From contig NZ_JAAVVZ010000003.1 in the NCBI RefSeq assembly GCF_023910635.1, forward strand, positions 62,001 to 126,000: a stretch of 64,000 bases of DNA, in the 5' to 3' direction. The notes below the pieces were generated by a model. That model saw only the letters and a list, made by a program, of their open reading frames with translations, was not told where the DNA came from and ran no database searches. Both the position numbers and the translations under genes were made by a program. This DNA is from Sphingorhabdus sp. (GTDB lineage Bacteria; Pseudomonadota; Alphaproteobacteria; Sphingomonadales; Sphingomonadaceae). Below, one piece after another: positions 6,682 through 31,979 of the stretch (its first letter is position 1; each line of letters opens with the position of its first letter).

Positions 6682-7566
6682 TCATTGCAGGTTGGTATCA
6701 GCGGCATTCGCGATGGCCAACAAGGCCTGGCCATAAGCAGTTTTTTCAAAAAACTTGCCGCGTTCGATCAACTGGTCGCGGTCAATGAACCCCTGATGAA
6801 ACGCGATTTCTTCGAGGCAGGCAATTAACGTGCCGGTGCGCTTCTGCATCACGCGCACAAACTCGCTTGCTTCGACGAGGCTGTCGTGGGTGCCGGTGTC
6901 TAACCAAGCGTAGCCACGCCCCATTTTTTCGACGTACAGCTCGCCCAGTTCCATGTACATACGGTTAAGCTCGGTTATTTCGAGCTCTCCGCGTGCAGAT
7001 GGCCGGACGTCCTTCGCTAGCTCCACGACCTTGTTATCGTAGAAATACAGCCCTGTGACGGCGATATCGGAACGCGGCTGTTTTGGCTTTTCTTCAATTG
7101 ATATTGCGCGACCGTCAGCGTCCAATTCCACAACTCCATATGCCGAAGCATCGGTGACCTGATAACCAAAGACGGTCGCGCCTTGTATCCGCTCTCTCGC
7201 GTTGGCGAGCAATGCGCCAAAACCTGCGCCAAAGAAAATGTTATCGCCCAGCACCAGGGCCGCTGGTTGATCACCAATAAATTCGGCACCAATATGAAGT
7301 GCCTGCGCCAAGCCTTCAGGCTTGGGCTGCACTGCATATTCAAACTTCAGTCCGATGTCTTCGCCGGTGCCAAAAAGACGCCGATAGTTATCCAGATATT
7401 CTGGCGATGATATAATCAGGATTTCGCGAATGCCAGCCAGCATCAGCGCCGAGAGCGGATAATAAATCATCGGCTTGTCGTAGATCGGTAGCAGCTGCTT
7501 GTTTATCGCAAGCGTCGCTGGGTGCAGTCTGGTGCCTGAACCACCGGCCAGTATTATTCCGCGCAT
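6682..7566 (-). CDS. rmlA: glucose-1-phosphate thymidylyltransferase RmlA
   Basis: A 294-aa enzyme making dTDP-glucose from glucose 1-phosphate and dTTP, the first step of dTDP-L-rhamnose synthesis. It shows the nucleotidyltransferase loop GIILAGGSGTRLHP (residues 3-16), KQLLPIYDKPMIYYPLS, the metal/sugar-binding VLGDNIFFG, IEEKP and WLDTGTHDSL. It is the last gene of rmlC-B-D-A, 12 bp after rmlD. Oddity: the IS630 copy is inserted at its extreme 3' end, so the last residues (about TNLQ) and the TGA stop are encoded by the IS terminal repeat. Length is normal, so the enzyme is probably active. Confidence 0.95.
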   Translation of the reverse strand: MRGIILAGGSGTRLHPATLAINKQLLPIYDKPMIYYPLSALMLAGIREILIISSPEYLDNYRRLFGTGEDIGLKFEYAVQPKPEGLAQALHIGAEFIGDQPAALVLGDNIFFGAGFGALLANARERIQGATVFGYQVTDASAYGVVELDADGRAISIEEKPKQPRSDIAVTGLYFYDNKVVELAKDVRPSARGELEITELNRMYMELGELYVEKMGRGYAWLDTGTHDSLVEASEFVRVMQKRTGTLIACLEEIAFHQGFIDRDQLIERGKFFEKTAYGQALLAIANAADTNLQ

Positions 7567-7578
7567 TTTTATGTCCTC

Positions 7579-8454
7579 TTATCTTTCGAAACGTTCAGCG
7601 AGTATTTCATCGATCGCATCCTGCCAGTGCCTAGATGTAATTCCAAAATCCCGCTGTATCGCCGCCGTCGAGAGGCGCGAATTGCTCGGCCGTTTAGCAG
7701 GTGTGGGATATTGCGACGTGGTAATGGCCTTTAAAGCTGGTGTTGCAAGTCCGCGCCCCCCCATGTTGGCAAATATCGTCGCCGCCAGTTCATGCCAACT
7801 AGCTTCCCCACCGTTCACAAAATGCCATGTGCCATATTGTGCGTGGGGGTGTTCGGCCACTGCCAGCAGCGTCTGGGCTATATCGGAAGCGCTTGACGGA
7901 CAACCGATTTGATCATCAACCACGCTGACTTCAGGTCGATCAGAAGCCAGTCGGATCATGGTGTTTACAAAATTCGCGCCGCCCGCGCTCACTACCCAAG
8001 CGGTTCTGATGATCGCATGGCGCGGATTAAGTGAGCGAACTGCGCTCTCGCCCATTTCCTTCGTTCGGCCGTAGACACCCAGTGGGTTCACCGCGTCCTC
8101 TTCGACATAAGGCGCGTCTTTAGTACCATCAAACACATAGTCAGTGGACACGTGAATGATGGGAATATCCAACTTCGCCGTTTCGGCTGCGAATATAGCT
8201 GGTGCGACTGCGTTGACCTGCTCGGCCAAAGCGGCATCGGTCTCTGCGCGATCAACGGCAGTATAGGCCGCGCAGTTGATAACGGCTGACCATGAACGAT
8301 TGGCAACCAAGTCGGCGATGGACTGCGCATTCGTTAAATCCATCTGCGCGCGGGTGGGCGCAAATATATCCAAGCCACGTGTCTCAGCATGCCGCAACAC
8401 AGCCTGACCAACTTGGCCGGTCCCGCCCGTCAGAAGAATGGTTGCCTTTGACAT
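7579..8454 (-). CDS. rmlD: dTDP-4-dehydrorhamnose reductase RmlD
   Basis: A 291-aa SDR-type reductase catalysing the last step to dTDP-L-rhamnose with NAD(P)H. Visible motifs: N-terminal Rossmann glycine motif LLTGGTGQVGQAVLRH (residues 7-22), HVSTDYVFDGT (residues ~102-112) and the catalytic YGRTKEMGE (YxxxK, around residue 130), then RTAWVVS. It lies 2 bp after rmlB and 12 bp before rmlA in the same operon. Confidence 0.95.
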   Translation of the reverse strand: MSKATILLTGGTGQVGQAVLRHAETRGLDIFAPTRAQMDLTNAQSIADLVANRSWSAVINCAAYTAVDRAETDAALAEQVNAVAPAIFAAETAKLDIPIIHVSTDYVFDGTKDAPYVEEDAVNPLGVYGRTKEMGESAVRSLNPRHAIIRTAWVVSAGGANFVNTMIRLASDRPEVSVVDDQIGCPSSASDIAQTLLAVAEHPHAQYGTWHFVNGGEASWHELAATIFANMGGRGLATPALKAITTSQYPTPAKRPSNSRLSTAAIQRDFGITSRHWQDAIDEILAERFER

Positions 8455-8456
8455 CG

Positions 8457-9521
8457 TTACGCGGTTTTCAAACCAAGTCTTTCACCTTGATATTCGCCCG
8501 ATTGAATGGCCTGCCACCATGCACGATTTTCAAGATACCATTTGATGGTCTTTTCCATGCCACTTTCAAAAGATTCAAGCGGTTTCCAGCCCAATTCCCT
8601 TTGCAGTTTGCTAGCATCTATTGCGTAGCGGAAATCATGACCGGGCCGGTCGGCGACGAACTTAATCTGCTCGCGATAGCTAAGTTTATCCGACCTCGGC
8701 CGGATACGGTCTAATGTGTCACAAATTACATGGACAACTTCAAGGTTGGTGCGTTCCGAATTGCCGCCAACCATGTAGCTGTTTCCGACGGCGCCATTCT
8801 CAAACACTGCTTGCAAGGCACGGACATGGTCATCAACATACAACCAGTCGCGCACATTTGATCCCGTGCCGTATACGGGCAAGGGCTCGCCAGCCAAACA
8901 TTTGATGATGACCAACGGGATCAGTTTTTCTGGAAAATGAAAAGGGCCGTAGTTGTTCGAACAATTGGTGATCACCACAGGTAGGCCATATGTATGATGC
9001 CAAGCCTGAACCAGGTGGTCGGAACCAGCTTTCGATGCCGAATACGGCGAACGCGGGTCATACGGCGTTTCCTCAGTAAAAAACCCGTCATCGCCAAGCG
9101 CACCAAATACTTCGTCCGTCGAGATGTGATGAAAGCGGAAATTGCCCTGTTTGTCTTCCGGCAAATCGCGCCAATATTCCAGCGCGCCGTTCAACATGGA
9201 AAAGGTGCCAACGAGATTGGTCTGAATAAACGCTCCGGGTCCATCGATGGAGCGATCCACATGCGATTCCGCCGCCAAGTGGGTGATGACATCTGGCTGA
9301 AAGCTTTTTATCGCTTCAAGAATCTTGGTAGAATCGCAAATGTCTATCTGCTGGAATTGATATCGATCGGATCCAGCCACGGACGCCAGCGAGGACAGGT
9401 TTCCGGCATAGGTCAGCGAGTCAATATTCAAGACGGTGTACTCGGTATCGGACATTAGATGTCGCACGAGCGCTGACCCTATAAAACCCGCGCCGCCGGT
9501 GACGATAATTTTCTTGCTCAT
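8457..9521 (-). CDS. rmlB: dTDP-glucose 4,6-dehydratase RmlB
   Basis: A 354-aa NAD+-dependent SDR that turns dTDP-glucose into dTDP-4-keto-6-deoxyglucose. It has [15 protein letters not shown] near the N-terminus, [19 protein letters not shown] with the family's active-site Thr-Asp-Glu, and [10 protein letters not shown] (YxxxK). The ATG at 9521 is preferred because it sits directly before the Rossmann strand; a GTG four codons upstream (9533) is an alternative. It starts 15 bp after the rmlC stop, so translation is probably coupled. Confidence 0.95.
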
Positions 9522-9536
9522 AAATTTAGACACATC

Positions 9537-10100
9537 TCAGGTTGATAAGGAAGCCAACGGGTTGCCGTCGTACGGAAAATCGAAATCGCTATGGGACAAA
9601 GATGGCAGACTTGCATCCTTGTCTGACAAGATCGGAGCAGCGCTAACCATCGGCCAATTGATTGCCAATTCGGCATCGTCCCACCGAATACCGCCATCGG
9701 CCTGCGGCGCGTAATACGCATCTACTTTATAAGCTACGTGACAATCGTCTTCGAGCGTCAAGAACGCGTGCCCAAAACCCGCGGGGACAAAAAGCTGATT
9801 GCCTCGTTCAGCGGACAATTCGATACCAACCCATTTTTTAAACGTCGGGGATGCATGTCGCAAATCAACCGCGATGTCGAAAATCCTACCCTTTATACAC
9901 CGCACCAACTTTGCCTGCGCATGCGGAACACGCTGAAAATGGATACCGCGGATCGTGCCTGCCTTTAAGGAGGCAGATTGATTATCTTGGCAGAATTCCC
10001 CACACACGCCGAGTTTCTGAAAGCGGTCTTCGTTCCACGTTTCCGTGAACCAACCCCGATCATCGGCAAATCGTTGTGGGGTTAAGTGCACAACGGGCAT
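9537..10100 (-). CDS. rmlC: dTDP-4-dehydrorhamnose 3,5-epimerase RmlC
   Basis: A 187-aa cupin epimerase. Signature pieces are DDRGWFTETW, NQSASLKAGTIRGIHFQ with the catalytic His, and VPAGFGHAFLTL; the C-terminal half follows the family to PILSDKDASLP. It is the promoter-proximal gene of the rmlC-B-D-A operon. AAGGA eight bases before the ATG supports the start, and a short palindrome lies about 45 bp upstream. Confidence 0.95.
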   Translation of the reverse strand: MPVVHLTPQRFADDRGWFTETWNEDRFQKLGVCGEFCQDNQSASLKAGTIRGIHFQRVPHAQAKLVRCIKGRIFDIAVDLRHASPTFKKWVGIELSAERGNQLFVPAGFGHAFLTLEDDCHVAYKVDAYYAPQADGGIRWDDAELAINWPMVSAAPILSDKDASLPSLSHSDFDFPYDGNPLASLST

Positions 10101-12074: not shown

Positions 12075-14288
12075 ATGATAAACTCTACTCGCCCCGCGCT
12101 AGGCATTGCAAATTCAGGTGTGCCTTCAGTAAACGGTGAAGCGGAAATCAGTCTAGCTCCACCTATCTTGCTGCAGTATTGGCATGTCCTAATTCGTTGG
12201 AAATGGCTAATAGTTGGCATCGTGATTGTCGCTTTGACTATTGGATTGGTGGCTACTTTACTTGCGACTCCTCAATATACTGCCACATCGCGCATTGAGA
12301 TTAGCCGATCGCAGAAAAACGTGACAAACGTGGAAAGCCTCGAATCGGCCGACGCGGGTCGCGATCAAGAGTTCTTCCAAACCCAATACTCCCTGTTGCA
12401 AGCTAGATCTTTAGCAGAAAGGGTCGCTCGGCAATTACGTTTGGCAAATAATGACCAATTCTTTGAAGCCCATGGCGTGGATCCTAATAATGCGGGTCTG
12501 TTTGCTTCAAAATCTTCTAAGCAGCTGCGTGGCCCGGAATTGCGAGCGCGGGAAAAAAAGGCGATCGACTTACTTACCAAACATATCTCAATTTCGCCGA
12601 TCCGCAACTCGGCTTTGGTAGATATAAGCTACACCAGCGCCTCGCCCGGCCTTTCGGCGCAGATCAGCAATTCATGGACGGAGCAATTCATTGTTCAGAG
12701 TATGGATCGGCGTTTTGCATCTACTGCAGATGCTAGAAAATTCCTTGAAGGCCGCTTGGCTGATCTGCGCGCTCGTGTCGAAACATCCGAGCGGGAAGCT
12801 GTCAACTATGCTTCACAGAAAGACATTGTCGCACTCGCCACAACGAGGAATGCGGACGGGAACACGGAAGTTGCCCGTACAATGGTCTCAAGCGATCTTG
12901 AGGCGCTAAACGGCGCGTTAGCTGAGGCTACTGCCAGTCGAATTGCCGCTCAAAGTCGTGTAAACAGTCGCAACGGCGGAGCGAATTCCGACGCACTAGG
13001 AAATGCAGCGATTTCACAACTTAGGCAACGGCGGGCGGAGGTCGCTTCAGAGCAGGCAAAGTTGCTGGTCCAGTTCGAACCAGACTATCCTTCCGTTAGA
13101 GCACTTACCGAACAACTACGGGCACTCGATGCAAGCATCGCACGAGAAGAAAGCCGCGTACTTAACAGCCGCTCTACAGAGTACAGTGAAGCAGTTCAAC
13201 GCGAGAGGGACCTTCTGCAACGCGTGCAAACTCTGAAAAGTCGCTTGGACCGTCAACAGCGGGACAGCATAAAATACAACATTTTTCAACGTGAAGCAGA
13301 TACAAACCGGCAGCTATATGATGGTCTATTGCAACGGTACAAAGAAATTGGTGTCGCTGGTATTGGTGCAAATAATATCGCAATTGTTGACCAAGCTAAG
13401 CTCCCGGAGAGTCCTTCCTCGCCTAGCTTACCAATAAATATGGCGTTAGCCTTACTCGCTGGCATGGCTGTAGCTGCCATTTCCACATTTGCTATTGAAC
13501 AAATTGATGAGGGCATTCGTAATCCGGATCAAGTCAACCGCATCTTGCACGTCCCCTTGCTCGGAAGTGTTCCAGACGCCGACCAGACAGACACTTTTGT
13601 CCTATTAGCTGATCCAAAGTCAATGATTGCGGAGGCCTATTTCAGTGTGCGGTCCAACCTTGCTTTCAGTACCGACCACGGAATACCAAACACTTTTATG
13701 GTCACTAGCACTCGGCCGGCCGAGGGGAAGTCTACGACCAGCCTTGCACTTGCGACCGTTATGGGCCGAACAGGCAAAAAGGTCTTGTTGGTTGATGCCG
13801 ACATGCGATCGCCGTCAATGCACCAATTTCTCAATTGCCAGAACAATAGCGGGCTCAGTAACTTTTTGGCAGGCGACAATCAGTGGCAAAATATGGTCCT
13901 CGAAACGGATCAAAAGGGCCTGCATCTTATGCCTGCAGGGCCGATGCCGCCCAGCGCTTCAGAACTACTCAGCAGCGATCGGTTGTTAATGCTCATACGG
14001 CAGCTGAGTGAGCACTTCGATCATATCGTAGTTGATTCACCACCAATACTGGGGCTTGCCGACGCACCGTTGCTTTCGCGCGCTGTTGAAGGGTGTATAT
14101 TTGTGGTGGAGGCAGAAGGTGTTGCTGTCAGAGGTTTGAAGTCCTCGTTGGGGCGTCTTCATGCAGTGCATGCCCATGTGTTTGGTGTGGTTCTTACGAA
14201 ACTCAAGAATCGCCAAGCTGGATATGGATATGGATATGGATATGGATATGGATATGGAGAGAGAGATCCTCGAATTGATGACAATTGA
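12075..14288 (+). CDS. Wzc-like polysaccharide co-polymerase with BY-kinase domain
   Basis: A 737-aa inner-membrane protein controlling chain length and export. A Wzz domain with TM1 (residues ~43-65, WKWLIVGIVIVALTIGLV) is followed by a long coiled-coil periplasmic part (~200-420) and TM2 (~450-470). A cytoplasmic tyrosine autokinase carries Walker A TSTRPAEGKSTTS (~545-557), A' VLLVDADMRSP (~570-580) and Walker B HIVVDSPP (~650). The C-terminal tyrosine cluster, the autophosphorylation target, is here a pure (Gly-Tyr)6 repeat encoded by a GGATAT microsatellite at 14220-14258. AAGGAAA precedes the ATG by five bases. Its neighbour is a divergent ligase/polymerase. Confidence 0.92.
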   Translation: MINSTRPALGIANSGVPSVNGEAEISLAPPILLQYWHVLIRWKWLIVGIVIVALTIGLVATLLATPQYTATSRIEISRSQKNVTNVESLESADAGRDQEFFQTQYSLLQARSLAERVARQLRLANNDQFFEAHGVDPNNAGLFASKSSKQLRGPELRAREKKAIDLLTKHISISPIRNSALVDISYTSASPGLSAQISNSWTEQFIVQSMDRRFASTADARKFLEGRLADLRARVETSEREAVNYASQKDIVALATTRNADGNTEVARTMVSSDLEALNGALAEATASRIAAQSRVNSRNGGANSDALGNAAISQLRQRRAEVASEQAKLLVQFEPDYPSVRALTEQLRALDASIAREESRVLNSRSTEYSEAVQRERDLLQRVQTLKSRLDRQQRDSIKYNIFQREADTNRQLYDGLLQRYKEIGVAGIGANNIAIVDQAKLPESPSSPSLPINMALALLAGMAVAAISTFAIEQIDEGIRNPDQVNRILHVPLLGSVPDADQTDTFVLLADPKSMIAEAYFSVRSNLAFSTDHGIPNTFMVTSTRPAEGKSTTSLALATVMGRTGKKVLLVDADMRSPSMHQFLNCQNNSGLSNFLAGDNQWQNMVLETDQKGLHLMPAGPMPPSASELLSSDRLLMLIRQLSEHFDHIVVDSPPILGLADAPLLSRAVEGCIFVVEAEGVAVRGLKSSLGRLHAVHAHVFGVVLTKLKNRQAGYGYGYGYGYGYGERDPRIDDN
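14220..14258 (+). repeat. GGATAT hexanucleotide tandem repeat (6.5 units) in the kinase tail
   Basis: Six perfect GGATAT units plus GGA, each adding one Gly-Tyr pair to the tyrosine-rich tail. Unit length is a multiple of three, so slippage changes tyrosine number without breaking the frame. Confidence 0.95.
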
Positions 14289-21271: not shown

Positions 21272-22627
21272 TCAAGGAGATAAAATTGCGCTAGTTTGGC
21301 GCGACCTGTAGCGGATAAATAACAACAAAGTCCAAGGCATGCTCACAAATGCACCTACCATGGCGTAGCCCATCATCATTTCCGTAACATCTGAACGCAA
21401 CAGCCAGACCATTATAATGGTCGCTATTGCCGAAATAATTGATACGGGCAGCATCGGCTCCTCTCGATGAGCGCGCATATATGTAGCGGCCGAGTAAGAA
21501 GCTGTGTTAAGAACTGCAGAACAAGCGATCCAGAATAAGGTCGAGGCACTGGCAATTCGATGCACAGCCTCTAGTTCGGCTAACGTGGCAAGTTTGACAA
21601 TACCGACAATGGAAAATGCAATTGCAGCTGTGGCGAATACCGACCGTGCTGCGACCGACATGAATAACTGGTTCAATGCTCGGGGCTCTCGCCTTGACAC
21701 ATGCATCGTGAAGTTTGGTGCCTTTGCATTTATCCAACTTAAGCCAAGCGTCGTCACTGCATTAAATACGGTCATTGCCATGCCAACTCGACCGGCCACA
21801 ACAGCGCCGTGCGTAGCAAATGCTATGGGAGTGAACATATTATAGAGAAAGTAGCCGCTGACCCAACTGACGGCGATACGCCATTGCAATGGAAGAACAT
21901 CTCTTCTCCAATTTACCTCACTATTTTTCCGGTCTATTTTCCTAAATCCGGAAGCCTTTGAACGTAGCCAAAACCACGTCACAAACGACGACATGAGTGG
22001 TAACGACACCGTCGCCCAAAGTTCCAATCCTAATATAAGCAAAAGCCACAATAAGACATATCCGGCCATCGACTGCAATAAGCGCAGGCGCGCTACCTGG
22101 CCGACCTGCCCCAAGCCCTCGAATAATGCGAGTTTCGGACTTAGAAATAAATTGAAGGCCGTCAGCAATACTAGAACGACCCAGACTGGCGCCCAGTCGT
22201 AAATTGAAATAGACTGGTTATTTACAAAAAAGAAAATCCATCCGGCTGTCCCCGCGATTGCAGCAAATAATACAGCGGCAACTGCGAACCATCGACGTAC
22301 AAATCCAAAGATACCGCCAATCCGGTTGAGACGGTCTTCGTGCCCCAAAAACGTCCCATCTGGCTGTACCGTAATATGCGCGGCTTCATGGCTAATTAGA
22401 AGAACAATAACTTGGCTAAAACCGAGTTCAAAAAAGATCTGCAGTGCCAACAAACTCGCAAACGTATAAAAGAAGCCTTGCTGTAAAGGCGTTAACCAAA
22501 ATGGCACTATTAGCACCGTTAGGGCACCAGCAACTAGCGCCCATATCCTGTACAATAGCGTTAGCGACACATGAAAATCGAGGCCTGTCATCACTAACAT
22601 ACGCCTAAGCGACGCAGACAGACCCAT
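21272..22627 (-). CDS. Wzx-like polysaccharide flippase
   Basis: A 451-aa integral membrane protein with about 12 predicted segments and no soluble domain, as in the MOP/Wzx superfamily that flips lipid-linked repeat units across the inner membrane. The segment after TM2 (ISHEAAHITVQPDGTFLGHE) is an unusually long polar loop. The start at 22627 is preferred: AGGA lies six bases upstream, whereas the ATG five codons earlier has no ribosome site. It is preceded by 114 bp of AT-rich non-coding sequence, a possible internal promoter. Sequence conservation is weak, so the call rests on topology and context. Confidence 0.72.
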   Translation of the reverse strand: MGLSASLRRMLVMTGLDFHVSLTLLYRIWALVAGALTVLIVPFWLTPLQQGFFYTFASLLALQIFFELGFSQVIVLLISHEAAHITVQPDGTFLGHEDRLNRIGGIFGFVRRWFAVAAVLFAAIAGTAGWIFFFVNNQSISIYDWAPVWVVLVLLTAFNLFLSPKLALFEGLGQVGQVARLRLLQSMAGYVLLWLLLILGLELWATVSLPLMSSFVTWFWLRSKASGFRKIDRKNSEVNWRRDVLPLQWRIAVSWVSGYFLYNMFTPIAFATHGAVVAGRVGMAMTVFNAVTTLGLSWINAKAPNFTMHVSRREPRALNQLFMSVAARSVFATAAIAFSIVGIVKLATLAELEAVHRIASASTLFWIACSAVLNTASYSAATYMRAHREEPMLPVSIISAIATIIMVWLLRSDVTEMMMGYAMVGAFVSMPWTLLLFIRYRSRQTSAILSP

Positions 22628-22741
22628 CGCCTTTCCTGTCATTTACCGAATTTCAACGGTAAAATAAAAATCATGTGAAAACACTGATGCTGCAGTATGT
22701 TAACTTTTGCGATCACCTTTGGTAACTCACATCGTTCATAT

Positions 22742-23917
22742 TTATATCTGGTATTCATTTCTGCGCTTAAGCAAGAATTCATATTCATCGCAATTTAAAT
22801 CCCGGCCCAAATTCCACTCTGCTTTTTTCCGGTATTCGATCTGAAATTTGTTTTTGTCGAATTGAAATTTATCGGCGCCGACAAGGGCATTGGCGACGTG
22901 ATTTACATGCAGAATTGCTTGTCGAGTTGTTCGACTGATGTGTTTCGTGTAATTTTCAATCGTACTTTCGTCCATCTCAGCCAAACTGTAGGAATTAAAG
23001 AATAAATCCACGGAATTGTCTTCTAAATCCTGAATGACAAATGAGGGTAACAGCGCAATGTCATAACGCTTAATTGTATCGATATTTATATTCGGCTCAT
23101 CGCCATATAATAAAAATTTCTTTTCTGGAAAAAGATTCATCAGCTGATAGCTGGATATGCAAAGTATTTCTGGCAAATCCAGATTAATATAAGCGAGATT
23201 GTTTGGCATGATTTTATTTAAATAATATGCAAAGCCGCCAATGCCGCCGCCCAATTCCGCAACGACACTGCGTTGCTCATTTGACGCAACAAGCGACGAC
23301 GCAACATGCGCATAATAATATTGATAGTCGGAACCCGACCGTACAAAATCCTGCCCTACCCAAATGCCGTAGGGATTCCCGAAATTTTCGATATGTAGGT
23401 CTCGTGTTGTTACATTGGGCAGTAGTTTCTCAAGCAACCGATATCTGTACACGGCATCGATCAACATGCGTTTCAAAGCCAATTTGGAAGGTGCATTTTT
23501 AAAATATACCTTCTCCATATCTACTGGCATGCCAATTAGCCCAGTGCTTATTGAATTTCGGAAAAAATTATCCAACAGGTCACGCAAGCCTTCAGCGTCG
23601 CCCTGTCTCAACACATCAAGTAGCTTTGTCAGCGGCTTTTCATAAATCGGAACCCATTCATTGGATACCTTGTACAAATCATTTTGTTTGGAATGATCTT
23701 TTGCCGTGAGGGAATATGCGTCGATAATGCGTTGGGCAACTTGCGTACGCTCAATCTTACTGCGCGTAGACGAGGTCGGACGCGGCAGAAGGCCCTTTTG
23801 AACTGCTGCAATCTCATAAAGCGGATCGCGCTTGAATTCCGCATCCCAATAACGGTACGTCTTAACCATATTGTTAAATCGACGCGCCCTTGAGACTATT
23901 CGCTTAATTATATTCAA
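22742..23917 (-). CDS. putative sugar O-methyltransferase
   Basis: A 391-aa protein. Residues ~195-260 carry the signature of the 'putative sugar O-methyltransferase' family: LHIENFGNPYGI, YYYAHVASSL, VVAELGGGIGGFAYYL (SAM-binding glycine loop), YINLDLPEIL, then NSYSLAEMD. These enzymes are found in polysaccharide loci and methylate sugar hydroxyls with SAM. AT-rich like its neighbours. It follows the SDR gene after 45 bp and may act on the unusual sugar made by the CDP-sugar genes upstream. Confidence 0.8.
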   Translation of the reverse strand: MNIIKRIVSRARRFNNMVKTYRYWDAEFKRDPLYEIAAVQKGLLPRPTSSTRSKIERTQVAQRIIDAYSLTAKDHSKQNDLYKVSNEWVPIYEKPLTKLLDVLRQGDAEGLRDLLDNFFRNSISTGLIGMPVDMEKVYFKNAPSKLALKRMLIDAVYRYRLLEKLLPNVTTRDLHIENFGNPYGIWVGQDFVRSGSDYQYYYAHVASSLVASNEQRSVVAELGGGIGGFAYYLNKIMPNNLAYINLDLPEILCISSYQLMNLFPEKKFLLYGDEPNINIDTIKRYDIALLPSFVIQDLEDNSVDLFFNSYSLAEMDESTIENYTKHISRTTRQAILHVNHVANALVGADKFQFDKNKFQIEYRKKAEWNLGRDLNCDEYEFLLKRRNEYQI

Positions 23918-23962
23918 TGAACTGCTCCAGATGGATAAATGTTAGTGAATCTGCATAGCTTC

Positions 23963-24907
23963 TTAAATAATTGCTTTAGAATTGATTACGGAAAATGATT
24001 CCTCTAAAACAATATCTAACGAATTGCCGGATGGTTCGTATCCAAATTTCTCTGCTCGCCGATTATTTGAATAATAATTCATTTTCATTCCTGTCGAATC
24101 GATAATTTCAAACGATTCGCAAAATGAATATTTTAATTCATATTTTGATTTCATTGCGTTTAATAATGAAAATTTGTCGATGGGAGATTTAGTGTAACAG
24201 TCAATAACATCATTAGTGAGTGGGGAAGAAATAATTGACTGAATTAATCTGAAAAAATCACTTGGGCCGATGTAATCACGAACAATATTGACCTGATTTG
24301 TCTTAAGCGTTTTTCCAGATTTTATGGCTCTCAATATGTCTGTGATCAAGAACCGTTCCGAGATATCTTGTGTGCGACTGACATAATTGAAAACTCTTAC
24401 ATCAATTATCGGGAGATGGGGCAGCGCGCGATGACGACATTCAGCGTACATTTTGGCTACTGAATACCAATCTCGTGTAAGTAAGTGATTGATTGGGATC
24501 TCAGCATAAGTATTTTCGTCTGCGGGTTCATCAAATCTCGAGCCATAGGCTGCTCCGCTGCTCAAAAATATGTAACGGCACTCGGGATGCGCAGTCTGAT
24601 AGCGAACAGCCATTTCATCATATTTTAGTGTAACGTCAAAAATAGACGCACCCATCGCTATTGCCTGTGCTGGGTTCCCCACCCCTACGAAGTTTAAAAC
24701 TACATCGAAGTGTAGATCATGATGAAAATCTTCAAAACCTGCAACGGTATAAACACCGTGCAATTGCATGTCGCGAAGCCATGTGACTACTGCGTCTGGT
24801 CGCCTTGCAAACAAAATAAGATTATGCTGGGTTTGTGCAGCAAAAGATCGGATGAGATCTTTTGCAATTTGGCTAGTAGCGCCCAATATTGCTATGCGTT
24901 GAGTCAC
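23963..24907 (-). CDS. NAD-dependent epimerase/reductase (SDR), CDP-sugar module
   Basis: About 314 aa, extended-SDR fold: IAILGATSQIAKDLI (Rossmann), VVLNFVGVGNP, FLSSGAAYGS, and YSVAKMYAE (YxxxK). The family includes the reductases that finish CDP-tyvelose, abequose and yersiniose. The GTG start at 24907 overlaps the transketolase C-subunit stop (GTGA); a TTG at 24925 is an alternative. The coupling indicates that it acts directly after the transketolase step, plausibly reducing or epimerising the branched CDP-sugar, as YerF does in yersiniose synthesis. Substrate is inferred only from position. Confidence 0.75.
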   Translation of the reverse strand: MTQRIAILGATSQIAKDLIRSFAAQTQHNLILFARRPDAVVTWLRDMQLHGVYTVAGFEDFHHDLHFDVVLNFVGVGNPAQAIAMGASIFDVTLKYDEMAVRYQTAHPECRYIFLSSGAAYGSRFDEPADENTYAEIPINHLLTRDWYSVAKMYAECRHRALPHLPIIDVRVFNYVSRTQDISERFLITDILRAIKSGKTLKTNQVNIVRDYIGPSDFFRLIQSIISSPLTNDVIDCYTKSPIDKFSLLNAMKSKYELKYSFCESFEIIDSTGMKMNYYSNNRRAEKFGYEPSGNSLDIVLEESFSVINSKAII

Positions 24908-25824
24908 GGTAGGGAGAGCCCGCAAAATTCCGAAACGCGCCTGAGCACGGAATTATCGTCCAAGCCGTGCTCATGCAAAAGATATGCGTGTGAACCACAA
25001 TGAGAAGAAAAACGGTCTTCCACCCCAAGTCTCAACAACCGAGTTGGATGATCCTGACTAATAATTTCAGCTACTGCTCCGCCTAACCCGCCTAATATAG
25101 AATGCTCCTCGAGTGTTACCAAGCCTTTGGTAATACTTGCTGCGCTGCAGACATCCTTACTGTCCAGCGGCTTCAACATAGGCGCACTCCACGCCATCAG
25201 GTTGAGCTCTTCAGCAACACGAAGGGCGGTTACCGCCATTGCGCCTGTAGCAATGAGTCCAGGACGATCCGTTCGTCCATCTCGCAATTTAATTAATTGC
25301 CCGGATTTCAACGCATCTATCGGCCCAGTATGGACGTCGCCGCGATCTGATTTTCCCATACGGAGGTAAACGGGTTGCTTTGCAGAATACGCGTAATTCA
25401 TACACGATTCCATTTCAAATCTATCGGCCGGAGAAAGCACCGTCATATTGGGTATGCTTCGAGTACATGCAATATCTTCGGTTGATTGGTGACTGGTTCC
25501 TAAATGGCTGTAAACGAAACCTGCCCCGTCTCCCAAAAGAACGACCGGTAGATCATCATGAGCAATATCTAGCTTTATCTGTTCGATTGTTCGTATTGGT
25601 ACAAAGGCTGCCAACCCATATACAAATGGCCGAAAACCGACGCGCGCCAAACCCGCGGCCATGCCAACCATGTTTTGCTCAGCAATACCGGCATTAATAT
25701 ATTGCTTCGGGCATTCCCGCCGAAAATCGTCAAACAATGCATAGCCGTGATCGCCGGTCAGGAGCAGTACCTTACGGTCGGCTGATGCAAGGCGCACCAA
25801 AGCACTAGAAAAAGCGTCCCTCAC
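24904..25824 (-). CDS. transketolase-like C-terminal subunit
   Basis: A 306-aa protein equal to the pyrimidine-binding plus C-terminal domains of transketolase: INAGIAEQNMVGMAAGLARVGFRPFVYG (the Glu that activates thiamine diphosphate), FVYSHLGTSHQSTEDIA, VTLEEHSILGGLGGAVAE. GTG start overlapping the N-subunit stop (TAGTG), so the halves are translated together and form an alpha2beta2-type enzyme. Position between RfbH and an SDR argues that the acceptor is a CDP-keto-dideoxy sugar, not a pentose phosphate. Such split transketolases in glycan loci are known but most lack assigned reactions. Confidence 0.88.
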   Translation of the reverse strand: MRDAFSSALVRLASADRKVLLLTGDHGYALFDDFRRECPKQYINAGIAEQNMVGMAAGLARVGFRPFVYGLAAFVPIRTIEQIKLDIAHDDLPVVLLGDGAGFVYSHLGTSHQSTEDIACTRSIPNMTVLSPADRFEMESCMNYAYSAKQPVYLRMGKSDRGDVHTGPIDALKSGQLIKLRDGRTDRPGLIATGAMAVTALRVAEELNLMAWSAPMLKPLDSKDVCSAASITKGLVTLEEHSILGGLGGAVAEIISQDHPTRLLRLGVEDRFSSHCGSHAYLLHEHGLDDNSVLRRVSEFCGLSLP

Positions 25825-26669
25825 TACGCAGCTGCCCCGAGCGCAGCAATAGCATCGGCGTACGTTTGGCTATTCAGTCGTGTGTAGTGCCAGCTGTTGT
25901 CGGATTCCATGAATGGAACGCCTTTTCCCTTTACGGTAGTGGCGATCAAAGCCTTAGGTTTGCCTACTCCAGTCGCCCAAAGGCGGTGAATAGCCGAATC
26001 CAATTCGTCCTCATCATGTCCGTCAACTTCCAGCGTTTCAAAGCCAAAGCTTCGTAACTTAGATGCTAGGTCTCCAAGCGCCAAAACATCATCGGTCGGG
26101 CCCATTGCTTGAAATCCATTTTTGTCAACAATCATCATCAAGTTGTCAATCTTGTGATGTGCCGCTACCAATGCCCCTTCCCAGATTGGTCCTTCATTGA
26201 GCTCGCCATCACCGACAAGACAAAAGACCTTTTGCTCAGCTTTTTTGGACATTAAACCTAGTGCGATACCAACCCCGACTGAAAATCCGTGCCCCAACGA
26301 TCCTGACGTTACTTCAAGTCCAGGTACCCGTGAGTCTGATAAACCTTTTAAGTCACTTCCATCTTCAAAATAACCCTTGATTTGTTCGTCAGTTAACCAG
26401 CCTAACTCGTGCATACAGGCATATTGGGCCATGACACCATGCCCTTTGCTAAGGACAAGGTAATCCCGTCCGTCCGCCATTGGATTGTTGTCCGGATATC
26501 GCAAATGATTGCGATATAGCACGGTCAATATTTCGACGATCGAGAATGCACACCCGATATGCACTGTTGAACCAGAATATGCCATGTCCAACACCGTGCG
26601 CCGCATACGCGCGGGTAAAAAGCGATGATCACTATTGAGCAAGGTTGAATTTCGCATTTTTTTCGTCAT
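25824..26669 (-). CDS. transketolase-like N-terminal subunit
   Basis: A 281-aa protein corresponding to the pyrophosphate-binding domain: YSGSTVHIGCAFSIVEILTVLY, VLSKGHGVMAQYA, GSLGHGFSVGVGIALG and the thiamine-diphosphate/Mg motif GDGELNEGPIWEGALVAAHH...DKN. Its ATG overlaps the rfbH stop (TAATG) and its stop overlaps the partner subunit start. The pair would form a ketol-transferring enzyme. Housekeeping transketolase is normally a single 650-residue chain, so this split pair is probably specialised for the sugar pathway. Confidence 0.88.
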   Translation of the reverse strand: MTKKMRNSTLLNSDHRFLPARMRRTVLDMAYSGSTVHIGCAFSIVEILTVLYRNHLRYPDNNPMADGRDYLVLSKGHGVMAQYACMHELGWLTDEQIKGYFEDGSDLKGLSDSRVPGLEVTSGSLGHGFSVGVGIALGLMSKKAEQKVFCLVGDGELNEGPIWEGALVAAHHKIDNLMMIVDKNGFQAMGPTDDVLALGDLASKLRSFGFETLEVDGHDEDELDSAIHRLWATGVGKPKALIATTVKGKGVPFMESDNSWHYTRLNSQTYADAIAALGAAA

Positions 26670-28021
26670 TAGAAGTTGAGGCCAAAAAATTCTTCCAACT
26701 TATCGCCAATATATTCGAGGTGCTCCTCAGATAAACCTGGAAAAGTGCCCAACCAAAACGTCTGGTTCATCACAATTTCAGTATTCGTCAAGTCCCCAGA
26801 AACTCGATAATTGCGGCCAGTCATATATGGCTGCTTGGTAAGGTTGCCAGCAAAAAGCAAACGGGTGCCAATTTTATTTTGGTCAAGGAAGTTGATGAGA
26901 TCAGTTCGCATAATCCCACTATTTTCTTTTAAAATGAGAGGAAACCCGAACCAAGACGGATTGGAATTTGGGGTTGCTTCAGGCAAGTGCAAGAACTCGC
27001 TGCAACTTGCGAGGCGCTTCTTTAAAAAGGAAAAATTAGAACGTCGCTTGGCTATAAACTCCTCCAAACGATCCATCTGGGCCAAGGCACAGGCAGCCTG
27101 CATATCGGTGATTTTCAGATTGTATCCCAAGTGACTATAGGTATATTTATGGTCATATCCGTCCGGTAAATCACCGCCGATATCTTTTTTGGTCCAGCAA
27201 AACCGCTTATTGCAGGTATTGTCCTTTCCAGTTGGGCAATAGCAATCACGTCCCCAGTCGCGGAATGACTCCGCAATCATCTTCAATTCCACGTCATTTG
27301 TGAATACAGCACCGCCCTCGCCCATTGTGATGTGGTGCGCGGGATAAAAACTAAGAGTTCCGATATCACCAAAGGTGCCGACCATTTGATCCCGATATGT
27401 CGCACCCAAAGCATCGCAACAATCTTCGACTAACCATAGGTTATACTTTTTGCATAACGCCGTTATTACTTCGACGTTGAAAGGATTACCGAGACTGTGA
27501 GCCAGCATAATTGCCTTAGTTTTTGGCCCAATTGCAGCTTCAATTTTCGTCGGATCAATATTGTGTGTAGCTAATTCAATATCTACAAATACTGGCACAG
27601 CTCCAAACTGCAAAATAGGATTAACCGTGGTTGGAAAACCCGCTGCCACGCCTATTACTTCATCTCCGGGTTTGATTGCGCGAGCGCCAAGTTTTGGACT
27701 CGTCAGCGTTGAAAACGCGACCAAATTTGCCGATGAACCCGAATTAACAGTAATCAAATGCTTTACGCCTAGAAAATCGGCCATTCGTTTTTCGAACATT
27801 GAATTAAAGCGGCCAGTTGTTAGCCATCCATCTAAAGAGGCCTCAACCATCAGCTGTAATTCCTTCGCGCCAACGACTTTACCAGACACCGGCACTGGCG
27901 TTTCGCCATGCACAAAAGGTACGGGAGCATATGCAATGTCTGCATATTGCTGAACTAACTCGCCAATCTGCTTGCGAATAGCATCAAGCGGAGAATCAAC
28001 GTTTATCGATTGTGTAGTCAT
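26669..28021 (-). CDS. rfbH: CDP-4-keto-6-deoxyglucose 3-dehydrase RfbH
   Basis: A 450-aa PMP-dependent, iron-sulfur dehydrase (E1, RfbH/DdhC/AscC). Diagnostic features: [14 protein letters not shown], where the usual PLP lysine is replaced by His; a Cys cluster [17 protein letters not shown] for the [2Fe-2S] centre; and [22 protein letters not shown] early on. With its reductase it removes the C3 hydroxyl of CDP-4-keto-6-deoxyglucose. ATG overlaps the stop of the CDP-glucose 4,6-dehydratase (ATGA); the stop overlaps the transketolase N-subunit start. Confidence 0.95.
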
Positions 28022-29073
28022 TTTTCATCCTGATATTGAGAAATCTGCGCGAGACAGACCGCGCGCATATCCGCGCCCGCCAACCAAGCTTGATGCCATT
28101 GAGTGATGTTCGACAACGCCGTTTGGAGTGGCCACCGGGGCAGCCAATTTAAGCGTGAGCGAGCCTTAGAGATGTCTAGTTTTAAGTAGTGCGCCTCGTG
28201 TGGGTGTTCCCCCGGTTGCAATATCCACGATCCCCCGCCCGTCCACTCTTGGCATAGGCGTTCAACAATCCATTGCACAGTTTGCGCATCCTCGTCGCGA
28301 GGACCAAAATTCCAACCTTCCGCGTCTAACTGACCATGCTCATACAAACGCTCAGCCAACCGTAAATACCCCGACAAGGGCTCCAAAACATGTTGCCAAG
28401 GACGAACGGCATGCGGGTTGCGTATTTGCACTGGCCGCCGATCCTCAAGCGCTTTTAAAATGTCAGGAACGAGGCGATCCGACGCCCAATCACCTCCACC
28501 GATGACGTTGCCAGCACGTGCGGACGCCAGTGCGATACCTTGAGCTTGAAAAAACGATTTGCGATATGCGTTTCCTACTAGCTCGGCGCAACCTTTGCTA
28601 CTTGAATAAGGATCATGGCCCCCCATAGCCTCATGCTCACGATAGCCCCAAACCCACTCTCGATTTTCATAACACTTATCAGTTGTTACAGATACGATTG
28701 CCCGCACACTGCCTGCGTGCCGCGCGGCTTCTAATACGTTGACGGTGCCCATTACGTTCGTAGCAAAAGTATCGATAGGCTGCTGGTACGATAAGCGCAC
28801 TATTGGCTGCGCCGCCATGTGAATTACGATTTCAGGCTTAAAATCTGCCATCAAAGCAGAAAGTATATCATAGTTTCGAATATCTGAGATCTGGTGGTCC
28901 ATGCCATTAGCAACCTGCGCGATGCTAAAAAGAGCCGGCACGGTGGGCGGTTCGAGCGAAATGCCTCGTAAAGTCGCCCCCAATGATTGCAACCACAGAC
29001 TCAACCAACTCCCCTTGAAGCCGGTATGCCCCGTCAATAAAACGCGCTTGTTTTGCCAAAATGCTGGATTCAC
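28018..29073 (-). CDS. rfbG: CDP-glucose 4,6-dehydratase
   Basis: A 351-aa SDR converting CDP-glucose to CDP-4-keto-6-deoxyglucose. Motifs: [20 protein letters not shown] (residues ~4-23), [31 protein letters not shown], and [13 protein letters not shown]. The GTG at 29073 is chosen because the family starts a few residues before FW..KRV and a GGTGGA site lies just upstream; the longer frame to 29124 overlaps the preceding gene. It lies 11 bp after the rfbF stop. Confidence 0.94.
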
Positions 29074-29084
29074 ATTTTCCACCG

Positions 29085-29858
29085 TTAGGGCCACTTCTTC
29101 CACGGTGCGGTGCCATCGACCCACATTTTTTCAAGAGTGTTTTTATCGAATAGAGTGTCCATCGGTTGCCAAAATCCGTGATGCGGAAATGCCATCAATT
29201 CGCCCTGCTCGGCCAAGCTGGTTAGCGGGCCTTGTTCCCAAACCGTATCGTCACCGTCTAGCAGCGACAGAACTTTCGGAGACAAAACGAAGAATCCGCC
29301 GTTGATCAGCATGCCATCACCACGCGGTTTTTCTTTAAAACTATGCACTCGGTGGTTTTGAATATCCATGGCGCCGAAGCGAGCGGGTGGATAGGTCGCA
29401 GTAAGCGTAGCGGCCTTGCCGTGGCTTCGATGGAAGGCGATTGTCGCTCCAATGTCGTTATCGCCAACGCCATCGCCATAGGTGAAACAAAACGCCTCTT
29501 CATTTTTGACGTGATCGGCAACGCGCCGCAAGCGACCCCCTGTCATTGAAGCATCGCCTGTGTCGACCAGCGTAACTGTCCAGGGCTCTGCGCGCTTTTG
29601 GTGAACGCGCATATTGTTCGACTTCATGTCAAAAGTAACATCAGACATGTGTAAAAAGTAATTCGCAAAATATTCTTTGATCAAATATCCTTTATAGCCA
29701 CAACAAATGATAAAGTCGTTGATGCCGTGATATGAATACATTTTCATAATGTGCCACAAGATCGGCTTGCCTCCGATTTCGACCATAGGTTTTGGCCGAG
29801 TCGAAGTTTCTTCGCTCAATCTGGTGCCCAATCCACCTGCAAGAATTACTGCTTTCAT
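29085..29858 (-). CDS. rfbF: glucose-1-phosphate cytidylyltransferase
   Basis: A 257-aa enzyme making CDP-glucose from CTP and glucose 1-phosphate. Motifs: AVILAGGLGTRLSEETSTRPKPMVEIGGKPILWHIMK (residues ~3-39), FICCGYKGYLIKEYF, VTLVDTGDASMTGGRLRRV and FTYGDGVGDND. Full length for the family. It lies 18 bp downstream of the reductase gene and is the entry step of the CDP-sugar branch. Confidence 0.96.
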   Translation of the reverse strand: MKAVILAGGLGTRLSEETSTRPKPMVEIGGKPILWHIMKMYSYHGINDFIICCGYKGYLIKEYFANYFLHMSDVTFDMKSNNMRVHQKRAEPWTVTLVDTGDASMTGGRLRRVADHVKNEEAFCFTYGDGVGDNDIGATIAFHRSHGKAATLTATYPPARFGAMDIQNHRVHSFKEKPRGDGMLINGGFFVLSPKVLSLLDGDDTVWEQGPLTSLAEQGELMAFPHHGFWQPMDTLFDKNTLEKMWVDGTAPWKKWP

Positions 29859-29876
29859 ATATTTATTCTCGATCTG

Positions 29877-30869
29877 TCAGATAGATCCCGAGCTTACAAA
29901 AGCATCGGAATAAAATCGGTTGGGAGCCAAGCCAGCTTTAAAGAGCTCTACTTTAGCACTAGCAATCATTGCCTGAGATCCACAAGCGTACGCAACGGCA
30001 TCACTTAAGTCAGGTCCATTTTCCAATAATGCATCTTGGACGTAGCCCCGAGCCCCCGACCACTCGGAATGTGCCTGAGACAATACAGGCAAAAAAGTGT
30101 GTCGGCCTCCTATCGCCTGAATATCATAGTATATATCAGCGACAACCCGCCCCCCCCAAACGACCGTTACCGAGCGCGGTTGTTCATCAACGCTAAGTTC
30201 CGTGATTGCCTCAAGCATCGCTTTGACGGGCGCTATACCTGTGCCTGTTGCCAGAAAAATTAAGTCCAAGCTCGCGCAACTGCGAAGAAAAAACGACCCA
30301 AGCGGTCCATTGATACGCAAAAGATCATTTTCTTTGGCTTTATTGAACCAGTAATCGCTCATCGCACCCCCATGCACCGCACGTATGTGCAAATCAAGAT
30401 GGCCGCGACAATTCGGTGCATTCGCAATTGAGTAGCTTCTGCGCATGGCCCCAGGCCCGATCACATCGATATATTGACCTGGCAGATAACTGAAGGCACT
30501 TGTTGGCGGAACCCTGAGTGTCGCGAGCATCACATCTGGCGCTAATTTCTGTAGGCAATCGATACGGGCGGGAAGAGTTTTGACTTCAGGTATATATATG
30601 CCGTCCAAATCTTCGGCATCAATTGTTAAATCTGATGCTGCGGTTCGTATGCAGCTGAGAATATAGCCGGCCTTTTTTTCATCATCTGACAAGCCTATCT
30701 CAATGGCAAGCGCTTCGCTCCGTCCGCTCAAAATCCTGCATTTGCAAGAGCTACACCGGCCCGTTTTACAACTATAAGGAAGCGAAATCTGCGCATTTGC
30801 TGCAGCATCTAACAAAGACACTCCGTGCGAGCACTCAAATTTTTTCCCAGAAACAAGTTCTACTAACAA
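29877..30869 (-). CDS. rfbI: CDP-6-deoxy-3,4-glucoseen reductase (RfbI/AscD)
   Basis: A 330-aa flavo-iron-sulfur electron donor for RfbH. The N-terminal plant-type [2Fe-2S] domain has CKTGRCSSCKCRIL plus a later Cys (residues ~34-75). An FAD domain (RRSYSIANAP) and an NAD domain (FLATGTGIAPVKAML, AYACGSQAMI) follow. A TTG start at 30869 with AAAGGAG five bases upstream is preferred, which gives the usual family length; a TTG at 30884 is possible. It is the first gene of the CDP-sugar run, so the promoter should lie in 30870-31031. Confidence 0.94.
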   Translation of the reverse strand: MLVELVSGKKFECSHGVSLLDAAANAQISLPYSCKTGRCSSCKCRILSGRSEALAIEIGLSDDEKKAGYILSCIRTAASDLTIDAEDLDGIYIPEVKTLPARIDCLQKLAPDVMLATLRVPPTSAFSYLPGQYIDVIGPGAMRRSYSIANAPNCRGHLDLHIRAVHGGAMSDYWFNKAKENDLLRINGPLGSFFLRSCASLDLIFLATGTGIAPVKAMLEAITELSVDEQPRSVTVVWGGRVVADIYYDIQAIGGRHTFLPVLSQAHSEWSGARGYVQDALLENGPDLSDAVAYACGSQAMIASAKVELFKAGLAPNRFYSDAFVSSGSI

Positions 30870-31031
30870 GATTGCTCCTTTCAATTATTAAAACTGTTGG
30901 TGCTTTATCAGTGTGTGTCAATCTTACATGACGGGTAATGATTGTAGGGTCCGAGCGCAATGGCACCTGAAATTGTCATTTTTTATTCCAAATTTATAGG
31001 TCTCTACCAACCAAGTACCTCTCAAATTATA

Positions 31032-31979
31032 TCATAAAATGATCAAGATGAGCGCAAGGGTTAACGACGCGATCCAGTACATAAATAAACCACCGGGCCA
31101 CCCAAACTTATCCTGCAAATGATGATGCAAATGGTCGCGATCAGCAGACATGGGCGACCGCCCCTGCCGAAGGCGTTTATACGTTAGCCTAAATGAGTCA
31201 GCGACTGGCACAACAAAAAGCAACACTAATTCGTCAGCGCTAATTGCCCGCAGCGCCTGGGTTCCTGGCGTGTTGTAAACCATGATCGAAAGCAATCCGA
31301 TAGCGGCAGCAATTGCGTATGCTCCGCCATCACCGAGGAACAACTTGCTCCTCATGTTAAAAGTAAACAAAACCATCAGCACAGCTGAGAACAAACCAAT
31401 AAGTGGCAGCAAGGGCCCAACCGATCGGGTCGCTAGTATCGCCAGCCAGCCCAAAGAAAGTCCTAAAACAAGCCCATTCTTTCCGTCAGCCATGTTAACT
31501 GCGTTCAAAAGACCAACGCAACAGACTACTGTGAAGATAATAGAGAGCCACCATGTTCCCAATCCTAGGGTTAACGGGGGTATGATGAAATCAAGAACGC
31601 GAACATTGAAAGTCGGATCTACAGCGGCCGCAATAGCAAACACAGCAAACGAAATTATAAGCCTTGAGCGCGGGGAAAGAGAGTGCCGGTCATCACCGAG
31701 CCCCACCAGTGCCATCGCGGAAACGCAGCCGAGCCAGATCAGAAGAGATCCAAGCCAGCGTTCTGAGGCAAAAATCATGATATAGGCGAGTGCTACAGGA
31801 ACAAATGCGATAAGAAGCGTGACTCCTCCCATCAAGGGCGTAGGTACGCTGTGCTTTTTTCTGCCAACAGGAACATCCATCAGATTTAATAATGTGCAAA
31901 TGCGTTGCGCGTTCAAACACAAAATAATTGCTGCCAATGCACCTGACAAGATCAGCGCAATGTAAAGTATATCGTCCAT
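31032..31979 (-). CDS. WecA/TagO-like polyprenyl-phosphate sugar-1-phosphate transferase
   Basis: A 315-aa MraY/WecA-superfamily membrane enzyme with ~10 TM segments. It shows the acidic metal-binding motif ALVGLGDDRHSLSP, the NAVNMADGKNGL loop, FLGDGGAYAIA and the cytoplasmic DRDHLHHHL. It transfers a (probably N-acetylhexosamine) 1-phosphate to undecaprenyl phosphate, starting the repeat unit for this locus. It lies upstream of the reductase gene by 163 bp on the same strand, so it may head the large transcript. Confidence 0.88.
   Translation of the reverse strand: MDDILYIALILSGALAAIILCLNAQRICTLLNLMDVPVGRKKHSVPTPLMGGVTLLIAFVPVALAYIMIFASERWLGSLLIWLGCVSAMALVGLGDDRHSLSPRSRLIISFAVFAIAAAVDPTFNVRVLDFIIPPLTLGLGTWWLSIIFTVVCCVGLLNAVNMADGKNGLVLGLSLGWLAILATRSVGPLLPLIGLFSAVLMVLFTFNMRSKLFLGDGGAYAIAAAIGLLSIMVYNTPGTQALRAISADELVLLFVVPVADSFRLTYKRLRQGRSPMSADRDHLHHHLQDKFGWPGGLFMYWIASLTLALILIIL

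Follow-up and report, generated by a model that had tools for sequence, protein, structure and literature searches.

A split transketolase beside RfbH as a probable replacement for YerE in a yersiniose-type pathway

RfbF, RfbG, RfbH and RfbI make CDP-4-keto-3,6-dideoxyglucose. In the yersiniose pathway this front end (RfbFGHI, or DdhABCD) is followed by YerE, which is a thiamine diphosphate (ThDP) carboligase, and by the reductase YerF. In the window, by which we mean the whole 64,000-nucleotide stretch of Sphingorhabdus sp. analysed here (contig NZ_JAAVVZ010000003.1, positions 62,001 to 126,000), the four rfb genes run into a split transketolase (subunits TK-N and TK-C) and a short-chain dehydrogenase/reductase (SDR). 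We consider it highly probable, and well supported by genomics, that the transketolase pair is a ketone carboligase replacing YerE. The module would then vary the yersiniose pathway by using a carboligase from the transketolase family, an arrangement that we did not find described in the literature searched.

A 2025 review lists decarboxylases, alphaKADH2 enzymes and, unproven, split-gene transketolases as the ThDP enzymes that branch keto sugars; YerE-like enzymes mainly serve cell structures such as lipopolysaccharide, and the use of transketolases for tertiary alcohols is said there to be without experimental demonstration (PMC12247030). Per the same text, Streptomycetes are the source of all 13 further candidate transketolases (Krug et al.; PMC12247030). 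Our literature search, which did not extend to the 2024 survey of Krug et al., found no paper describing a module of RfbH and a split transketolase. An earlier reading of this DNA from sequence alone (the sequence-only reading) was aware of no characterised case with exactly this gene set; this agrees with our search, but the set is widespread and not peculiar to the window. We dropped apulose 4-phosphate transketolase as a tertiary-carbon precedent after the literature search found nothing for it. The search also found nothing on the Carboxydothermus split transketolase or on yeast transketolase residues.

All genes of the run lie on the minus strand, in the order RfbI, RfbF, RfbG, RfbH, TK-N, TK-C, SDR, followed by a putative sugar O-methyltransferase and a Wzx-like flippase (Table 1). 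The sequence-only reading described the genes from rfbI to the SDR as contiguous on one strand, with overlapping stops and starts among the junctions from rfbG on, and we found just that: ATGA between RfbG and RfbH, TAATG between RfbH and TK-N, TAGTG between the two transketolase genes, and GTGA between TK-C and the SDR, the last of which sets the SDR start at 24907. The 45 bp between the SDR and the methyltransferase gene were also as described, and 18 bp separate RfbI from RfbF. The same reading began the run at 30869; RfbI is indeed there, but 30869 is a later TTG and the TTG start of RfbI is at 30884. The true start of RfbG may be internal to its frame. RfbF, RfbG and RfbH occur together, each above its NCBIfam equivalog cut-off. 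The earlier suggestion that RfbIFGH with a ThDP enzyme and a reductase fits a pathway to a C-branched 3,6-dideoxyhexose is supported. RfbI would be the electron donor for RfbH in a DdhD-type role; its homologs (51–59% identity) stand immediately 5' of RfbF in 10 of the 56 related loci described below.

Both transketolase halves are above Pfam cut-offs, TK-N for Transketolase_N and TK-C for Transket_pyr and Transketolase_C. The closest solved structures in a PDB sequence search were 6yak (a split transketolase N-chain) for TK-N and 6yaj for TK-C, and TK-N scored 224 bits with the transketolase model NF004559 against 40.9 with a model for the alpha subunit of pyruvate dehydrogenase (PDH) E1. We rejected DXS as an identity for the pair (TIGR00204: TK-C 145.2 bits and TK-N 33.5 bits, cut-off 465.95). 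Among the ten genes tested (21272–31979) there was no TPP_enzyme_N/M protein of the YerE type, and the sole trace of the TPP family in TK-N was TPP_enzyme_C at 21.5 bits, below cut-off.

We searched for the module elsewhere using TK-C alone as the query against a contig collection of 84,980 species (per its description). The search uses exact back-translated peptides and so picks up close relatives only, and it yielded 56 loci. Upstream of TK-N, 48 loci have at least 1.5 kb of sequence, and 47 of them hold RfbH there, no more than 3.5 kb away and on the same strand. The gap is below 60 bp in 36 of these; L005 is the single locus without RfbH. As a rough control we looked at 28 split transketolases outside the clade (loci of ~3.9 kb), where an RfbH match of at least 50% adjoined only one, L176, which is the same as L135. 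Given 47/48 against 1/28, the association of transketolase and RfbH is not due to chance. Record titles assign the 56 loci mostly to betaproteobacteria, with Methylococcaceae, Chlorobiaceae, a Magnetococcales and two cyanobacterial metagenome-assembled genomes (MAGs), whose taxon may be misassigned. A plasmid search with TK-C gave 477 records, every one below 60% identity. Open reading frames in the relatives were called greedily by length and at times took an antisense frame, so we rechecked gene order and the mutual exclusion of transketolase and YerE by tblastn.

What follows the transketolase varies. The window's SDR family is present in 26 of the 49 loci with at least 1 kb 3' of TK-C, and an alternative extended SDR (c6), placed either 3' of TK-C or between RfbH and TK-N, in 18; no locus has both, and five (L020, L034, L051, L058, L059) have neither. 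In L034 and L058 an unlabelled protein of ~360 amino acids (aa) sits directly 3' of TK-C, perhaps a third kind of partner enzyme.

Of 398 genomes of the phylum, 37 scored above cut-off for RfbH (NF011936), and we analysed 37 regions around those places, excluding the window's own. Twelve regions hold a full-length protein of the TPP_enzyme family (cluster k3), with the N, M and C domains all present in each of the 12 (Pfam), and a thirteenth, L127, has a partial k3-type protein at the region edge. None of these 13 regions has a transketolase by tblastn. Transketolases occur instead in L113 (a pair of the window's type), L135 (a diverged pair) and L139 (a split transketolase ~4 kb from RfbH), and both carboligase types together were found in none of the 37. 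We compared two of the 12 k3 proteins with the PDB. L108_07 matched the solved enzyme 5ahk, YerE of P. protegens (PpYerE), with an E value of 1.1e-234, and the best match of L109_07 was 8rph, JanthE (1.1e-108); the remaining ten we infer to be YerE-like in function. In the reverse direction, the 56 transketolase loci have no YerE-like match save a distant one in L049.

The reductase ties the two groups together. Homologs of the window's SDR family occur in 7 of the 37 RfbH regions. Four of them (49–52% identity) stand beside k3 proteins (L108, L109, L118, L129), two beside a transketolase (L113, L135), and one, at a contig end (L112), beside a pair of acetaldehyde dehydrogenase and aldolase. 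We regard this as the best evidence that the transketolase pair does the job of YerE, because the same reductase family adjoins either carboligase; together with the absence of any region holding both, it makes replacement the most likely explanation. The earlier proposal that a transketolase pair takes YerE's place is supported, in that the pair occupies the position of YerE-like enzymes at other RfbH loci and shares their SDR family.

An SDR tree was built from 35 proteins (29 linked to a transketolase of this type, four to YerE-like enzymes, one to the aldolase and one to the diverged transketolase; rows L091, L072 and L113 were dropped). L135, with the diverged transketolase, clusters with the YerE-linked L118 and L129 (100/99). 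L052 (transketolase) and L112 (aldolase) form a pair (100/100) that is joined next by the YerE-linked L109 (99/92). Supported branches force at least two carboligase swaps, and we read the swaps as apparently few but supported, few because the transketolase label is more clustered in the tree than in shuffles.

A predicted structure of the SDR (predicted local distance difference test score, pLDDT, 89.3) has the extended SDR fold. A PDB sequence search with it found no match; among the 50 fold matches listed are ArnA and UDP-glucuronate 4-epimerase, and the highest query TM-score, 0.80, belongs to 8v4h, the CDP-glucitol reductase of C. jejuni. We call the protein YerF-like by the family that adjoins YerE-like enzymes, and on this footing it is most likely the reductase of the transketolase pair's product. 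When we looked for further members of the SDR family in 198 genomes around G222, we found G222 alone.

To ask about the donor we aligned 52 related pairs and the window pair with the transketolase and DXS of the window's own genome. Length and gap filters left L009, L016, L051, L057 and L060 out of the residue count, and L091, L092, L113, L144 and L145 were left out as duplicates. Yeast transketolase numbering is used; columns R359 and S386 aligned poorly and were not used. Position 103, the contact of the ketol hydroxyl, is Leu in all 52 related pairs and in the window (Leu110 of TK-N). The equivalents of D157, E162, N187, H30, H69, H263, E418 and H481 are kept in 52/52, and in the window pair those of E418, D157, N187, H30, H263 and H481 are kept. 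All 52 relatives also have His469 changed to Gly, Asp477 to Leu and Arg528 to Lys, where His469 and Arg528 are phosphate contacts in the yeast enzyme. The hallmarks of EC 2.2.1.1, His103 and the phosphate-site residues, are therefore replaced throughout (H103L, H469G, R528K in 52/52). Nine other split transketolases in the same alignment keep His103 (9/9), 6yak has His there, and the own-genome DXS has Phe in this column. In a wider comparison of 28 outside-clade split transketolases (30 loci less L155 and L156, and including L176), 19 have His at position 103; the other nine show Val (4), Ile (2), Leu (1), Tyr (1) or a gap (1). We rejected the changes at 469, 477 and 528 as special to the clade, since other split transketolases have them too.

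Engineering of a Geobacillus transketolase (TKGST) gives a precedent for the change at position 103. H102(G,L,T) and H474(S,N) changes made aliphatic keto acids usable, and Y177/H640 are given as the residues that match TKGST H102/H474 in EcPDH E1, a pyruvate enzyme (PMC7696235); we infer the pairing of H102 with Y177 from the order of listing. D470L, H461S and R528Q also appear in its table of variants, where all three go with non-native acceptors or donors (PMC7696235). Known ketol enzymes thus have His at position 103, two pyruvate enzymes have Tyr or Phe, and this clade has Leu. Because the ketol-recognising residue is lost throughout the clade, the alignment points to a donor of the pyruvate type: given a carboligase role, pyruvate is the probable donor, and a ketol an improbable one. 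The sequence-only reading had predicted transfer of a ketol (glycolaldehyde) unit, and with Leu in 52/52 an acetyl unit and a yersiniose-type sugar now look likelier.

The pathway we propose would run as follows. RfbF, RfbG, RfbH and RfbI would supply CDP-4-keto-3,6-dideoxyglucose, and the split transketolase, in YerE's stead, would attack the C-4 ketone with its ThDP carbanion, giving a tertiary alcohol with an acyl branch. Pyruvate is the likeliest donor, which would make the branch acetyl; the YerF-like SDR would reduce the branch ketone to hydroxyethyl, and the resulting sugar, of the CDP-yersiniose type, would enter O-antigen or exopolysaccharide. As a whole (replacement of YerE, pyruvate as donor, reduction by the SDR and a CDP-yersiniose-type product) we lean towards this scheme, judging it somewhat better than an even chance. 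Gene order and swapping support the replacement of YerE; the donor and product are predicted.

Several observations weigh against the scheme. The YerE-like gene of L118 and L129, like the SDR there, is on the strand opposite RfbH, and the transketolase locus L049 has a 37% YerE-like frame 8 kb off. The 18 loci with the c6 SDR and the five with neither SDR, out of 49, do not share the window's reductase. In the SDR tree the transketolase label is clustered, with three changes against a shuffled mean of 5.7 (4 of 500 shuffles were as low); the tree also leaves 19 of its 32 inner branches open, and its bootstrap had yet to settle. A common SDR family is also compatible with a hydroxyacetyl branch. 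As for the residues, 9 of the 28 outside-clade split transketolases are also without His at 103, the 28 often share the changes at 469, 477 and 528, which are hence not specific, and the Phe of DXS falls in a gappy part of the alignment. The engineered pyruvate-using variant also carries H474S, and its kcat/KM is 0.01 on pyruvate against 5.5 s-1 mM-1 for the wild type on hydroxypyruvate (PMC7696235); His481 is retained in this clade, unlike in that variant. Because the engineered enzyme is slow and carries H474S while His481 is kept here, our donor is an inference and not proof.

With the same acceptor, the pair could move a ketol from hydroxypyruvate or a ketose phosphate to give a 4-C-hydroxyacetyl branch, reduced to a 4-C-(1,2-dihydroxyethyl) 3,6-dideoxyhexose. 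Ketol transfer is the usual chemistry of the transketolase family, and hydroxyacetyl transfer by split-gene transketolases has been proposed, not shown, for miharamycin and amipurimycin according to the review (PMC12247030); a separate lineage beside YerF-like SDRs (L135, L181/L185) retains His103. The uniform Leu103 of the window's own lineage speaks against it, and the Gly and Lys at 469 and 528 speak against a phosphorylated ketose in particular, although other split transketolases have them likewise. We take this reading seriously but think it unlikely. A longer 2-oxo acid donor, as for ErwE, would give a longer branch like that of erwiniose or caryophyllose. Genes for an acylating acetaldehyde dehydrogenase and a DmpG-type aldolase lie near RfbH in L106, L109 and L112, a pair that likely makes 4-hydroxy-2-oxo acid donors for erwiniose-like branches. 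ErwE prefers such acids (PMC12247030), and the sister relation of the L112 SDR to the transketolase-linked L052 SDR points the same way. That pair matches none of the 56 transketolase loci by tblastn, though these extend at most 10 kb each way and a donor could arise elsewhere; we hold a longer donor to be quite improbable.

It might also be that the transketolase has nothing to do with the dideoxyhexose, feeding another sugar while reduction at C-4 by the SDR yields a linear 3,6-dideoxyhexose. SDRs of cluster k8 do stand directly 3' of RfbH without a carboligase in L110, L111, L114 and L115, but none matches the window's SDR better than at 25% across 118 aa (E 0.044 within a set of ten proteins). 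All seven regions with the window's own SDR family also hold a carboligase or a donor-making pair, and with RfbH linked to the transketolase at 47/48 we give this idea very little credence. A housekeeping role for the pair was set aside, since the genome has a full-length transketolase (Tkt, C34:102556-104478) and close TK-C copies are rare in the family; the genome also has a DXS (789.4 bits, cut-off 465.95).

CDP-sugar branching may have recruited split transketolases on several occasions, with donors that differ. We built a tree of 49 transketolases, both split and full, which included the window's pair and 17 of the 52 relatives (a quick method without bootstrap, with long-branch warnings). 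The RfbH-linked Leu set of 18 rows forms one clade in it (Shimodaira–Hasegawa-like approximate likelihood ratio test, SH-aLRT, 100). L135 and L181 form a separate clade (support 100), and both keep His103 and adjoin a YerF-like SDR. In L135 (G117), RfbG and RfbH lie upstream of the diverged His103 pair, then comes the SDR; L185 (G085) is a larger stretch around L181 whose contig stops just past TK-N. Pairs of the L135/L185 type are candidates for real hydroxyacetyl transfer. Elsewhere, L186 (G027:C106, 2417–7008) carries one after another RfbF, RfbG, a Val103 split transketolase pair and a c6-like SDR. None of its called frames matches RfbH, and its pair perhaps branches CDP-4-keto-6-deoxyglucose itself. 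Tentatively, and rating it a little below even, we suggest that the split transketolase clade, which is spread over dozens of genomes (Pseudomonadota, Chlorobiota and, from MAGs, Cyanobacteriota), replaced YerE and switched from ketol to pyruvate through an H102L-type change, while at least one lineage that keeps His was recruited separately beside YerF-like reductases and may make a dihydroxyethyl-branched sugar.

The run sits inside a larger surface-polysaccharide region of the window. This region has a complete dTDP-rhamnose set (rmlA, rmlD, rmlB, rmlC in that order, 6682–10100), a Wzc-like kinase (12075–14288), glycosyltransferases, an EpsG-family protein, WbsX, a hexapeptide transferase, a protein of the O-antigen ligase family and a WecA-like transferase whose NCBIfam score is under the model cut-off. 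The O-methyltransferase had been thought perhaps to methylate the product; it falls outside the conserved module, as none of the 56 related loci has a match, and we rejected it as part of the pathway core. A close TK-C copy occurs in 2 of 298 genomes of the window's family (the window's own, G000, and G534) and is absent from the five further members of the genus that the sample includes. Some TK-C match exists in 293 of the 298, the best being at most 39% beyond G000 and G534. Because close copies are this rare and the SDR has a low G+C (0.399 against 0.525 for the window), the data suggest that the module was gained horizontally. In three Chlorobiaceae loci (L015:6557-7300, with the same protein cluster in L031 and L032) a protein with an HxHxDH metal-hydrolase-like motif, noted by eye, lies amid the RfbG, RfbH and transketolase genes.

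Table 1. Genes of the run and its downstream neighbours, in positions of the window
Feature	Coordinates	Strand	Basis and remarks
RfbI/DdhD-type ferredoxin-NAD(P)H reductase	29877..30884	-	Fer2+FAD_binding_6+NAD_binding_1; TTG start
RfbF, glucose-1-phosphate cytidylyltransferase	29085..29858	-	TIGR02623, 456.8 bits (cut-off 300.25)
RfbG, CDP-glucose 4,6-dehydratase	28018..29124	-	TIGR02622, 504.5 bits (cut-off 278.45)
RfbH, CDP-4-keto-6-deoxyglucose 3-dehydrase	26669..28021	-	NF011936, 731.3 bits (cut-off 423)
TK-N, transketolase N-subunit (ThDP/Mg domain)	25824..26669	-	PF00456
TK-C, transketolase C-subunit (pyrimidine and C-terminal domains)	24904..25824	-	PF02779+PF02780
SDR, YerF-like, extended; predicted reductase of the C-4 acyl branch	23963..24907	-	PF01370; GTG start
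NanM-type putative sugar O-methyltransferase	22742..23917	-	TIGR04371, 100.4 bits (cut-off 44)
Wzx-like flippase, same polysaccharide locus	21272..22642	-	NF041503, 65.5 bits (under cut-off 300)

The module adds about 50 natural split-transketolase candidates with a clear predicted acceptor, a partner reductase and a testable donor switch, and it could explain branched surface-polysaccharide sugars in organisms whose RfbH loci are without YerE. It shares with the yersiniose pathway a CDP-3,6-dideoxyhexose front end followed by a ThDP carboligase, and a reductase family that also adjoins YerE-like enzymes. Here, however, the carboligase is a split enzyme of the transketolase family and not a TPP_enzyme_N/M/C protein of the decarboxylase superfamily, and the product is predicted only. 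The split-gene transketolases of miharamycin and amipurimycin in Streptomyces are likewise proposed to add two carbons to a keto sugar (PMC12247030), but they serve specialised metabolites rather than CDP-dideoxyhexose polysaccharides, and we liken them by description. The alphaKADH2 carboligases (aldgamycin; KbDH of kibdelomycin) resemble our proposal in being ThDP enzymes that add a pyruvate-derived acetyl to keto sugars (PMC12247030), although they belong to the E1-dehydrogenase family and the window pair scores far better on transketolase models. By sequence the nearest solved structure for both subunits is the Carboxydothermus split transketolase (6yaj/6yak), which has His at position 103 where the window has Leu.

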